Part shown: piece by piece, positions 12,308-17,047 of the stretch
Layout: every line of letters starts with the position of its first letter
Numbering within the stretch: position 1 is the stretch's first letter
DNA from: Flavobacteriales bacterium UBA6772
GTDB taxonomy: Bacteria; Bacteroidota; Bacteroidia; Flavobacteriales; UBA7430
Assembly (NCBI GenBank): GCA_905182215.1
Contig: CAJJAI010000055.1
Location: 1-34,357 of the forward strand
Length of the DNA stretch: 34,357 nucleotides
Direction: 5' to 3'
The notes under the pieces: generated by a model
Told to the model about the DNA's origin: nothing
The model's input: the letters and a program-made list of their open reading frames with translations, nothing else
Databases searched by the model: none
Position numbers and translations under genes: made by a program

Positions 12308-13207
12308 ATGAACTGGAAAAGAGCTTTAGAAGAATACGGTAATTACCTCGTTTTGGAGAAGGCATATGCCAACAACACTATCGAAGCTTACATACGTGAC
12401 CTTACAAAACTAGCTGACTTTTGTATATCGGACTTAGAAATTAAAGATTGTACAAAACTGAGCACCGAAAACATACGTTTATTCATAATTAACTTATACG
12501 AACAAGAAGCGTCTAGCAAATCTCAAGCTAGGATTCTTTCTAGTTTAAAGTCGTTTTACAATTATTTAGAATTGGAAGAATGTATTTCCGTAAATCCTTT
12601 TTCTAAAATAGACAACCCTTCTATAGTGCGTAAGCTCCCTGAGACACTCAGTAAGGAAGAGGTAGACACGATTATAAATTCGGTAGATTTATCAGGGAAA
12701 TTCGGGGAACGTAACAGAACAATTTTAGAAACACTTTACTCTTGCGGATTAAGAGTTTCGGAATTAGTAAATCTACAATGTTCGCGTATATTTTTAGAGG
12801 AAGGGTTTTTAATTGTCTTAGGAAAAGGATCAAAAGAACGACTTATTCCACTTAACAAAATTTTAATTACCTACTTAAAAAACTATTTAAGCCTAATTAG
12901 ATCACATCAAAACATAGCTCCAGGACACGAGGATTTTGTATTCTTAAACAACAGAGGGAAGCAATTAACGAGAGTTATGATTTTTACAATCGTACAAAAG
13001 GAAGCTATAAAAGCAGGAATACAAAAAAAAATAAGTCCTCATACTTTTAGACATTCTTTTGCGAGTCATTTATTAGAGGGAGGAGCAGATTTAAGAGCCA
13101 TTCAAAGCCTATTAGGACACGAGAGTATAAGCACCACAGAAATTTACTTACACATAGATCGTCGATTTGTGAGAGAAGAAATAATAGCACACCATCCAAG
13201 AAAATGA
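12308..13207 (+). CDS. xerD: Site-specific tyrosine recombinase XerD
   Basis: Tyrosine recombinase core: LYSCGLRVSELVNL, HTFRHSFASHLLEGGADLRAIQSLLGHESISTTEIYLHID. Divergent from aroQ. Confidence 0.93.
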   Translation: MNWKRALEEYGNYLVLEKAYANNTIEAYIRDLTKLADFCISDLEIKDCTKLSTENIRLFIINLYEQEASSKSQARILSSLKSFYNYLELEECISVNPFSKIDNPSIVRKLPETLSKEEVDTIINSVDLSGKFGERNRTILETLYSCGLRVSELVNLQCSRIFLEEGFLIVLGKGSKERLIPLNKILITYLKNYLSLIRSHQNIAPGHEDFVFLNNRGKQLTRVMIFTIVQKEAIKAGIQKKISPHTFRHSFASHLLEGGADLRAIQSLLGHESISTTEIYLHIDRRFVREEIIAHHPRK

Positions 13208-14394
13208 TCCGATTTCCACACCCCAATATTCTGAAGCTTTTCATCATCAAAGGAACTTTATGGTTTATGATCATCATGCCTATCATCGTTTTGTTTTTTC
13301 AAGACAATGGGCTGAGTCTGCAAAGAATCATGATACTCCAGGCTTGTTACTCTTTGTCGGTAGGTCTCATGGAAATTCCATCGGGTTATGCAGCAGATAT
13401 TTTAGGGAGAAGAAAAACTCTTATTTTAGGTTGTATTCTCGCTTTTATAGGCTTCAGTCTGTTTTCTATTTCCTATAATTTTTGGTGGTTTTTAGCTGCT
13501 GAAATTCTACTTGGATTAGGTAACAGTTTCATTTCGGGTGCAGACACCGCACTTATGTACGATAGTTTACTAGAAGTTAAAGCAGAAGATCGATTCTTAA
13601 AATACGAAGGTAGAAGTATCTCAATTGGAAATTTCTCTGAGGCAGCTGCAGGAATTTTAGGTGGTTTTTTAGCTGCAATTTCTTTTCGCTACCCTGCCTA
13701 TGCTCAAGTTATAGTAGCATTCCTTGCCATTCCTTTTGCCATCAGTCTTACAGAACCGACTATTCATAAAGACCGACTTAAAAGTGCCTGGAAATCTATA
13801 TTTAAAGTGGTTCATTTTTCTCTTGTAGAACACAAAACCTTGCGAACACATATAATTTACTCCTCTGTTATAGGTGTAAGTACCCTAATGATGGCCTGGT
13901 TGGCTCAACCTTTTTTAAAGGATATTGGCGTAAACATGAAAAACTATGGACTGGTATGGGCTTTACTAAACATAATTGTAGGTGTTTTTGCTTTTAGAGC
14001 GCACTATATAGAAAAACGATTTACAGAACTAACGAGTCTATACCTTATAGGGTTCATTACCGTAAGCACCTATTTTATTATAGGAATTCATATGAGTTAT
14101 TTAAGTCTATTTATTTTGTTTATTTTTTATGCTAACCGAGGTTATGCGACTCCATTGCTAAGGAATTATATAAACAGATACACCGAGTCTAATGTACGGG
14201 CTACAGTTATGAGTGTGAGAAGTTTTATTATACGCATTAGCTTTGCTATCATCGCTCCTTTTATAGGTTGGATTGCAGATAACCATAGTTTGAATACAGC
14301 CTTTTTTACAATGGGGATAATAGGAACTGTTGTAAGTTCTTATTGTTTGATCTGGTTTTCTAAAAATAAAAATGACCAAGCAATTAATTACTAA
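13204..14394 (+). CDS. MFS transporter
   Basis: About 12 TM segments; GLMEIPSGYAADILGRRKTLILGC is an MFS loop 2-3 motif. Overlaps xerD by 4 nt (ATGA). Confidence 0.9.
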   Translation: MIRFPHPNILKLFIIKGTLWFMIIMPIIVLFFQDNGLSLQRIMILQACYSLSVGLMEIPSGYAADILGRRKTLILGCILAFIGFSLFSISYNFWWFLAAEILLGLGNSFISGADTALMYDSLLEVKAEDRFLKYEGRSISIGNFSEAAAGILGGFLAAISFRYPAYAQVIVAFLAIPFAISLTEPTIHKDRLKSAWKSIFKVVHFSLVEHKTLRTHIIYSSVIGVSTLMMAWLAQPFLKDIGVNMKNYGLVWALLNIIVGVFAFRAHYIEKRFTELTSLYLIGFITVSTYFIIGIHMSYLSLFILFIFYANRGYATPLLRNYINRYTESNVRATVMSVRSFIIRISFAIIAPFIGWIADNHSLNTAFFTMGIIGTVVSSYCLIWFSKNKNDQAINY

Positions 14395-14410: not shown

Positions 14411-14418
14411 TACTTTTG
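14411..14418 (+). promoter_or_regulatory. Bacteroidota-type -7 element for the MbnP-like/MbnH-like operon
   Basis: TACTTTTG, 15 nt before the ATG at 14433. Confidence 0.55.
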
Positions 14419-14432
14419 AAAAAAACAATTCC

Positions 14433-15374
14433 ATGAAAGCTCTACTTACTATTCTTATTGCAAGTGCATTGAACACTTTTACATTTGCACAATCTAAAGA
14501 AATCATTATAAAACTAAACCACGTTTACGATGGAGTTGTGTTCAATATAAATGACAGCTATTTGGTTGACGGGGATACTCCTGCTAAGTTTAGTAGAATG
14601 GAATATTACCTTCATCTCAATTCGATTGGAGAAACTTCTCTTGGAGAGGATAATTACATTCTTGTAAATACTCATCAAAACGATTACAGCATCGGAACCT
14701 TCGACGTTTCTGATGTAAATACATTGTCTTTTCACATTGGTGTAGCTCCAGGAGCAAATCATAGCGACCCTAGCTTATGGTCGAACTCACATCCTTTAGC
14801 ACCACAACAACCAAGTATGCATTGGGGTTGGGCTGCAGGATATAGATTTATTGCAGTTGAAGGTATGGTTGATGAAAATATTGATGGTATGTTTGAGTCT
14901 GTTTTACAATACCACGCGGTAGATGATGCATTTTATTCCTCTATAACAATAAGTGGAGCCGCTGTTGAAGACGAATCTTCTATTACTTTTTTCATGGATG
15001 TGAATTACCACAAAATGTTTGCAAACATAAATACGTCTGATGGAGGGGTATTCCATGGCTCTCAAAATCAAAACCTTGCACTTATAAATAACATCGTCAA
15101 CAACAATGTTTTCACTGTTGCAGAAAACCTGGCTTTATCAGAAGCAACAATTGGAACAACGATTTTCCCAAATCCTTTTACAGACGCAATACATCTAAAT
15201 ATTCTACAAAACTCTAGTGTTGGTATATACAACACTCTTGGCGAATTAATTGAAGCTCATCAAATAGACAAAGGAGAACAAGTCATAAAAAGTAGTCACC
15301 TTCCAAAAGGAGTCTATATACTTTCAGTAAAAAATAGTCTAAGTACTGAAAATACAATACTTATTAAAAAATAA
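14433..15374 (+). CDS. MbnP-like copper-binding family protein with T9SS type A C-terminal sorting domain
   Basis: Start ATG 14433, signal peptide MKALLTILIASALNTFTFAQ. The body carries LNHVYDGVVFNIND, FSRMEYYLHLNSI, LSFHIGVAPGANHSDPSLW, PSMHWGWAAGYRFIAVEG, the layout of MbnP/'metallo-mystery pair' proteins. Tail IFPNPFTDAIHLNI...SVGIYNTLGELIE...LPKGVYILSVKN...ILIKK is a Por/T9SS type A domain. Confidence 0.85.
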   Translation: MKALLTILIASALNTFTFAQSKEIIIKLNHVYDGVVFNINDSYLVDGDTPAKFSRMEYYLHLNSIGETSLGEDNYILVNTHQNDYSIGTFDVSDVNTLSFHIGVAPGANHSDPSLWSNSHPLAPQQPSMHWGWAAGYRFIAVEGMVDENIDGMFESVLQYHAVDDAFYSSITISGAAVEDESSITFFMDVNYHKMFANINTSDGGVFHGSQNQNLALINNIVNNNVFTVAENLALSEATIGTTIFPNPFTDAIHLNILQNSSVGIYNTLGELIEAHQIDKGEQVIKSSHLPKGVYILSVKNSLSTENTILIKK

Positions 15375-15400
15375 TCTAGGGCTTACTCCCATTTTTTTTA

Positions 15401-16390
15401 ATGAAAATCCTATTCTATCTACTTATATTGCTGTCGCTTATATCTTGCGAGATAGACAATCCTATTTATGAGGGACTCTATAAATTAGAAATTCCTCTTG
15501 GCTTTCCGGAACCTCTAATTCCAGAAGACAATCAACTAAATGTGGACAGAATAGAACTAGGAAAACGCCTTTTTTTCGATCCCATTTTATCTGCAGACAG
15601 CACCATTTCGTGCAGTTCTTGTCATAAGCAAGAATATGCTTTTGCTGACAATATTGCCATAACACCTGGGATAGAGGGTAGACTTGGTGTTCGGAATTCA
15701 ATGAGTTTGGCGAATGTTGCTTACAACGACTTTTTTTTACGTGAAGGAGGCGTTCCAACATTAGAAATGCAGGTTTTAGCTCCTATACAAGACCACAACG
15801 AAATGGATTTTAATATTATTCCTGTAGCAGAGCGAATGAAATTAGATTCTAGCTATGTAGCACAAAGTCTAAAAGCATATAACAGAGAACCTGATGCTTT
15901 CGTAATTACTAGAGCAATATCAGCTTTTGAACGAACCCTTATAAGTGGGAATTCAAATTATGATAAAGATCATTTATCCGCATCAGAAAGAGATGGTAAA
16001 GCGCTCTTTTTTAGCGAATCTTTAGCTTGTTCTTCATGTCATGGAACATTTCTATTTACCAATCAGGGTATAGAAAACAACGGTTTGTATGCCAACTACG
16101 CAGATTCAGGTAGATATAGGTTAACTCATTTACAAGAAGACATAGGTAAGTTTAAAGTTCCTACATTAAGAAATATAGAACTTACTGCTCCCTATATGTA
16201 CGATGGCTCTGTAGAAAGTCTAGAAGAAGTAATTAGCCATTATGAGGCTGGAGGAAAAGAACACTTTAATCAGAGTTCACTTATAAAAGGCTTCAATTTA
16301 ACCAGTACAGAAAGAGAAAACCTCATAGCCTTTCTTTATTCCTTAAGCGATGAAGACTTTACACAAAACACAAATTTCCAAAAAGATTAA
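15401..16390 (+). CDS. Diheme cytochrome c peroxidase / MbnH / MauG-superfamily lipoprotein
   Basis: Lipobox-like LLSLISCE; two CxxCH motifs (CSSCHKQEYAFAD at 15611, CSSCHGTFLFTN at 16028); ELGKRLFFDPILSADSTISC; KVPTLRNIELTAPYMYDGSVESLEEVI. Confidence 0.93.
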   Translation: MKILFYLLILLSLISCEIDNPIYEGLYKLEIPLGFPEPLIPEDNQLNVDRIELGKRLFFDPILSADSTISCSSCHKQEYAFADNIAITPGIEGRLGVRNSMSLANVAYNDFFLREGGVPTLEMQVLAPIQDHNEMDFNIIPVAERMKLDSSYVAQSLKAYNREPDAFVITRAISAFERTLISGNSNYDKDHLSASERDGKALFFSESLACSSCHGTFLFTNQGIENNGLYANYADSGRYRLTHLQEDIGKFKVPTLRNIELTAPYMYDGSVESLEEVISHYEAGGKEHFNQSSLIKGFNLTSTERENLIAFLYSLSDEDFTQNTNFQKD

Positions 16391-16397
16391 ACCAAAA

Positions 16398-16432
16398 AAA
16401 AGTCTTTCAATAATTATTGAAAGGCTTTTTTT
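16398..16432 (+). terminator. Intrinsic terminator after the diheme peroxidase gene (probably bidirectional)
   Basis: AAAGTCTTTCAATAATTATTGAAAGGCTTTTTTT, flanked by A8 and T7 runs. Confidence 0.88.
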
Positions 16433-16444
16433 AAAGAGTAAACT

Positions 16445-17047
16445 CTATAGTTTTTCAAGTAAATAAGTATATTCAAACTCTTCGTAGGCCACTAAGTCGG
16501 TAGAGTCTACATAAGTACGAAAGTCTTTCATAAAGAATACAAAAGTTTCGTCTGTTAACTCAACTACATGATATACTAATTCCTCTGTCGAAGAATCTAA
16601 GAAAAAGAGATCTTCGTTTAAGGTCCAATTGTACAATTTAGGTATAGAGTCGTATTCATCCCAAGTAACAGAACTTTCATTTACGTCAACTATAGTTAAA
16701 TTACTCTGGTGATCTACCACCAAAGTTTCTCTAGAATCAACAATTCTAACAGGAGGATCGTAAGGGCCATAATGCCCTAATTCGTGTGTAGTTTGAGTTT
16801 GAGTTATTTGCCATGTACCCAAAATTTTAGGCACTTCATTTTCATCGCAAATTCCATCACCATCCACATCATTTAAACAAACGTCATCGCAGTCTAAATA
16901 GTCCTCGGCATAAGTACAAGTAGCAGAAATGGTAGCAGTAGCACTATAATTACAAGCTGTTTCATCCATACAACCATTAATTTCGTCTTTTTTACAAGCT
17001 GAAAATACAACTGAAAGAACAAATATACTCAACAATACTTTTTTCAT
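16445..17047 (-). CDS. Hypothetical lipoprotein with Cys-rich N-terminal motif and lipocalin-like tail
   Basis: MKKVLLSIFVLSVVFSAC lipobox; GCMDETACNYSATATISATCTYAEDYLDCDDVCLNDVDGDGICDENE; then ILGTWQITQTQTT. Confidence 0.75.
   Translation of the reverse strand: MKKVLLSIFVLSVVFSACKKDEINGCMDETACNYSATATISATCTYAEDYLDCDDVCLNDVDGDGICDENEVPKILGTWQITQTQTTHELGHYGPYDPPVRIVDSRETLVVDHQSNLTIVDVNESSVTWDEYDSIPKLYNWTLNEDLFFLDSSTEELVYHVVELTDETFVFFMKDFRTYVDSTDLVAYEEFEYTYLLEKL

Follow-up and report, generated by a model that had tools for sequence, protein, structure and literature searches.

Two adjacent genes on the forward strand of a 34,357-nucleotide stretch of DNA from the marine flavobacterium Flavobacteriales bacterium UBA6772 (hereafter the window) encode an MbnP-like protein (14433-15374) and, 26 nt further on, a diheme enzyme with two CSSCH motifs (15401-16390). 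A preliminary description of the window had placed both genes at these positions and proposed that they form a stand-alone pair of the MbnP/MbnH type, in which the enzyme performs the same tryptophan-to-kynurenine modification as in characterized members. Both genes are real, and profile, fold and tree evidence supports the pair type. Its enzyme falls in a branch with a wide distribution, called clade B below, that is without the inter-heme tryptophan of all reference enzymes. Because of this loss, and because most relatives have a second enzyme that keeps the tryptophan, whether the window enzyme makes the 'same modification' is a real question.

The MbnP-like protein and its genomic setting

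The first gene starts at the ATG at 14433 (an ATG at 14394, given in the open reading frame listing, lies further upstream in the same frame), stops at 15374 and encodes 313 amino acids. Its product has a type I signal peptide (MKALLTILIASALNTFTFAQ, 14433-14489, read off the sequence), an MbnP domain that scores 69.8 bits against PF20243 (Pfam gathering cut-off, 27), and a C-terminal T9SS type A sorting domain (FPNPF...GVYILSV...ILIKK; 15162-15371). The sorting tail, part of the original proposal, is recognized above cut-off by both Por_Secre_tail (PF18962; 42.6 bits against 27) and TIGR04183 (37 bits against 23); with SprA encoded in the same genome, these matches identify the protein as a T9SS type A cargo.

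Sequence and profile searches for a solved relative of the MbnP part returned only T9SS tails and weak matches, and a fold search was needed. The AlphaFold model (pLDDT 91.8) has the MbnP of Methylosinus trichosporium OB3b (7L6G) as its top PDB match (E 1.5e-7, probability 1.00), with a TM score of only 0.42-0.45 that is due in part to the two-domain composition of the model; the T9SS tail of the model matches the T9SS CTD structures 8qb1/8glk.

The candidate kynurenine/copper motif, QPSMHWGWAAGYRF (14808-14849), contains the WxW of MbnP as W131-G-W133, and the two Trp codons (14823-14825 and 14829-14831) are those named in the preliminary description. M129, W131, G132 and W133 are unchanged in all 19 relatives of an alignment collected by Pfam profile, without use of the motif, which upholds the choice of WxW as the candidate. 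The region also aligns with GMAWNW of the MbnP of Methylocystis parvus and of 7L6G. The MbnP equivalog TIGR04052 is not reached (36 bits against a curated cut-off of 140), the match being confined to the WxW region, and the four-Cys motif is absent: the 313 residues include no Cys, and the MbnPs of Methylocystis and OB3b have several. No paper on a Bacteroidota MbnP turned up in the literature collection searched.

The two genes had been described as an isolated operon behind a promoter-like TACTTTTG at 14411. That element is no commoner than chance predicts, since the window has 49 matches to TANNTTTG, this one included, where 47.8 are expected, and it stands only 14 nt ahead of the ATG. The isolation is not supported either, because the family conserves xerD-MFS-mbnP-enzyme as a cluster. 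An MFS transporter gene (13204-14394, forward strand; PF07690, 109 bits), the conserved upstream neighbor in the family, lies with xerD directly upstream of mbnP on the same strand, 38 nt away in the window. The order of the four genes is kept in the relatives G001, G006, G007 and G009, and since it is kept and the MFS-mbnP gap is about 8 nt in G006 and G009, the pair may be co-transcribed with the MFS gene. In the relative G005 (locus L174), xerD and MFS are followed by 400 nt in which no mbnP frame is open, and then by the enzyme gene, there an orphan of clade B.

Downstream, the strong terminator of the preliminary description was confirmed as a bidirectional intrinsic terminator at 16395-16436 (-16.8 kcal/mol, z -7.68 against shuffles). 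On the reverse strand, a gene for a 200-residue lipoprotein (16445-17047) converges on it; the product includes a calcium-repeat-like stretch and matches Lipocalin_4 weakly, below the threshold. No copper genes adjoin the pair. As for the methanobactin genes mbnA/B/C, MbnB was found neither in the genome of the window nor in 12 relatives, in keeping with the earlier statement that no methanobactin locus is visible; the genome, from a Flavobacteriales family that includes metagenome-assembled genomes (MAGs) such as MED-G21 and CPC1469, comprises 1.26 Mb and is 62% complete. It encodes a second MbnP (G000:C10:1937-2491; L001:1399-2154), an untailed lipoprotein with a WTW motif and no diheme neighbor, located downstream of an apolipoprotein N-acyltransferase-like gene; several family members have a similar orphan arrangement.

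A diheme enzyme without the inter-heme tryptophan

The second gene encodes a lipoprotein of 329 amino acids (lipobox LISC) with hemes at C71/C74/H75 and C210/C213/H214, axial Y281 and distal Q124, P128 and E134. It matches CCP_MauG with 157.7 bits (Pfam), and its top PDB match is the OB3b MbnH, 6E1C (5e-45). A fold search with its AlphaFold model (pLDDT 91.4) returned the same structure (TM 0.87, 33% identity, E 9.3e-25), with CcpA and MauG far behind. Structure prediction, one of the checks proposed at the outset, gave 7L6G and 6E1C as the best PDB folds of the two proteins. In the proposed profile check, PF20243 is above cut-off and the MbnH equivalog TIGR04039 is the best NCBIfam model for the enzyme, but neither protein reaches its equivalog cut-off. 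For TIGR04039 the score is 253.8 bits against a curated 362.85, and none of 40 relatives reached that cut-off.

Only 4 of the 35 clade B enzymes with a recognized lipobox carry at least three acidic residues behind the Cys, and export of the enzyme to the surface through an acidic lipoprotein export signal was set aside on this count. We take the enzyme to face the periplasm because most clade B enzymes are without a strongly acidic stretch at this place.

In a tree of 147 rows, the enzymes encoded beside T9SS-tailed MbnPs fall into clade A (support 100) and clade B (99, or 91 when the nearest relative, L068, is included). Enzymes were assigned to the clades by the tree and not by an A/B score classifier, which mislabels some enzymes outside T9SS loci. 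A 35-row tree groups clade B with the MbnHs of Methylosinus, Methylocystis and Anabaena (98/92; 91/82 when the long MauG branches are left out) and clade A with the enzymes of untailed MbnPs, and places CcpA outside at 100/99. AU tests do not exclude other placements, either one that unites all Bacteroidota enzymes (p 0.26) or one that joins clade B with CcpA (p 0.18).

On an alignment of 136 relatives and 8 references, one constant offset of the MauG numbering brings Q103, P107, E113 and Y294 to Q124, P128, E134 and Y281 of the window enzyme, and Trp93 to Arg114 (codon CGT, 15740-15742, forward strand); Y281 thereby matches the Tyr ligand of the six-coordinate heme that is characteristic of MbnH/MauG-type enzymes. 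The inter-heme Trp is present in 42 of 42 clade A enzymes and 8 of 8 references and in none of the 49 clade B enzymes, which have Arg (40), Leu (3), Phe (3), Thr (2) or Ser (1) instead. All 49 have the axial Tyr, where CcpA has Met; the equivalents of Q103, P107 and E113 are retained. The clades differ at conserved sites near heme 1 (B/A: Y108/W, R114/W, E122/R), position 108 being Tyr in B and mostly Trp in A. Loss of the Trp is universal in clade B and not unique to it, since the residue is also replaced in a small number of the enzymes that go with untailed MbnPs (Ala 2, Arg 2, Phe 1 of 45). In a single lineage (family f9; L047-L049), MDWGW replaces MHWGW in the MbnP and Leu replaces Arg at the inter-heme position of the enzyme, possibly as a linked change.

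The CCP_MauG domain and the AU result for clade B with CcpA would suit an ordinary peroxidase of the CcpA type that merely neighbors a secreted protein unrelated to it, a reading we consider highly improbable. The axial Tyr, found in 49 of 49 clade B enzymes in place of the Met ligand, and a pairing conserved across phyla already refute most of it; in addition, the best fold is 6E1C and CcpA is split off in the tree, and we rejected the reading on ligand, fold and pairing. The preliminary description had itself named two outcomes that would count against its proposal, the lack of an MbnP-family HMM match and a tree position of the enzyme with CcpA; a match exists, and the tree does not put the enzyme there.

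One enzyme or two at T9SS-tailed MbnP loci

PF20243 is present in 65 of 99 relatives from the order, and a single scan, in which the tailed-MbnP motif was sought in 85,462 species genomes, yielded 405 relatives, by which measure T9SS-tailed MbnPs are common in Bacteroidota, Ignavibacteria and Kapabacteria. The best 80 of the 405, which were read, belong to Flavobacteriales, Saprospiraceae, Chitinophagales, Ignavibacteria, Kapabacteria and others; the invariance of the motif among these loci is by construction, because the scan selects M[HD]WGW.

Most sampled tailed-MbnP loci encode two diheme enzymes, one of each clade, and the window has B only. Among about 95 sampled loci, the order is MbnP-B-A in 45 and MbnP-A-B in 17, with B only in about 18 (some of these being one genome counted twice) and A only in 6. 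One locus with all three genes (L154) is that of Edaphocola flava, which has been cultured. Where relatives from the order have a strong match to clade B, the gene lies directly beside a T9SS-tailed MbnP in nearly all cases; the exceptions are G005, in which mbnP is gone, and G015, in which a clade B-like enzyme that has Arg as its inter-heme residue lies behind three tandem untailed MbnP genes (L068). In two Ignavibacteria (L119, L153) the order MbnP(untailed)-A-MbnP(T9SS)-B sets two pairs in a row, which suggests that B serves the T9SS-tailed MbnP there. Within three-gene loci, a mirror-tree comparison showed that MbnP divergence tracks A (r 0.72) more than B (r 0.59), and the idea that B is the closest co-evolving partner of MbnP was dropped.

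The frequency of tandem A and B enzymes and the closer tracking of A, taken with the two invariant Trp residues of MbnP and the differences near heme 1, would fit a division of labor in which A makes kynurenine and B carries out a different modification or a second step on the same MbnP, for example on W133 or as a hydroxylation. Lineages with B only, including that of the window, would then have the B-type modification alone. We regard this as rather unlikely, given that the tree puts B nearer than A to the characterized MbnHs and that genomes with B only keep the WxW context unchanged.

Alternatively, clade B could supply electrons or handle peroxide, either as a plain peroxidase or as a subunit of an A/B heterodimer, and in genomes with B only the MbnP Trp would be oxidized in trans by another diheme enzyme or left unmodified. 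The missing inter-heme Trp points this way, as does a further Trp-keeping diheme enzyme elsewhere in the genomes of G001-G003, G005-G007 and G009-G011. This enzyme is also present, however, in relatives where no T9SS-tailed MbnP was found, no second enzyme of the kind was found in the genome of the window (only 62% complete), and the axial Tyr speaks against a plain CcpA peroxidase; we judge such a partner role improbable. At seven loci of family relatives (L175-L179, L181, L182), a Trp-keeping diheme enzyme of about 358 amino acids lies away from MbnP and in most cases adjoins a conserved lipoprotein of about 186 amino acids that belongs to no family and is possibly another substrate or partner.

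Proposed maturation and comparison with known systems

In the OB3b MbnP (7L6G), the first Trp of WxW is oxidized to kynurenine through MbnH, and Cu(I) is held by His, Met, solvent and the kynurenine. Our preferred reading, which we hold with moderate confidence, is that the window pair is a Bacteroidota branch of MbnP/MbnH adapted to T9SS export, whose clade B enzyme converts Trp131 to kynurenine and so creates a Cu(I) site on a protein bound for export. Both proteins would cross the inner membrane, the enzyme becoming an outer-membrane lipoprotein that faces the periplasm. In this compartment hydrogen peroxide would drive its oxidation of Trp131 of the folded MbnP-like protein, and the kynurenine would complete the copper site with nearby Met and His residues (candidates M129, H130 and H208). 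Proteins exported by the T9SS travel folded and bear their signal at the C terminus, and modification before export is therefore possible; the finished protein would leave through SprA, lose its tail and end up as a copper-binding protein that is either secreted or attached to the surface. The enzyme would do without the relay through an inter-heme Trp, and BthA shows that a diheme enzyme can. Families, folds, gene pairing, tail, SprA and residue losses are established by the analysis; the oxidation, the copper site, the sequence of steps and the locations are inferred. Counting against this reading are the equivalog cut-offs and four-Cys motif already mentioned, the Trp loss throughout clade B, the tracking of A by MbnP, the AU tests and the lack of adjoining copper genes.

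A wider proposal is plausible, if on balance doubtful: two diheme enzymes of separate descent and with different jobs would mature the T9SS-exported MbnP, the Trp-less B performing a high-potential Trp oxidation with direct heme-to-heme transfer tuned by Arg114, or some other chemistry.

Among known systems, the MbnP/MbnH pairs of OB3b and Methylocystis (TIGR04052/TIGR04039, GenProp0940) are the closest, sharing adjacent genes, the MbnP fold, Met-x-Trp-x-Trp and a diheme enzyme with axial Tyr, and methanotroph MbnH is the nearest branch to the window enzyme in the tree, a grouping to which the AU tests leave alternatives. Unlike them, the window pair has no methanobactin genes that could be found, carries a T9SS tail, and lacks the four-Cys motif and the inter-heme Trp; both of its proteins fall below the NCBI equivalog cut-offs. 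The pair is best named a T9SS-exported Bacteroidota variant of the MbnP/MbnH system, and not a strict member, because the cut-offs and the four-Cys motif separate it from the latter. Kynurenine copper sites, surface location and a co-transcribed diheme enzyme are also known from MopE/SACCP and CorA/CorB of methanotrophs (PMC3912023, PMC3621798), which belong to a different protein family and use a different secretion route.

MauG shares with the window enzyme the axial Tyr, the distal Gln/Pro/Glu and a protein Trp as the site of action; it differs in its substrate, in its tree position and in Trp93, which is Arg in the window. In MauG this residue sits midway between the hemes and stabilizes the bis-Fe(IV) state, whereas BthA of Burkholderia has Ser257 at the equivalent place and still forms that state (PMC6405878). 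BthA thus resembles the window enzyme in the replaced Trp, but it is not described as modifying a partner MbnP and forms its own branch of the superfamily (PMC6405878).

If the preferred reading is correct, bacteria far removed from the methanotrophs, across Bacteroidota and related phyla, would form kynurenine-type copper sites in the periplasm and then export them to the surface. Clade B would then constitute a large natural family of MauG/MbnH enzymes in which the Trp93 relay is replaced and for which a candidate substrate is at hand, so that it could be tested directly whether the relay is needed, a point in dispute.

In the PLSDB gene table, two plasmid records (L187, L188) name an MbnH 'methanobactin export MATE transporter MbnM' and the mbnM gene 'hypothetical', as though the product names had been shifted.
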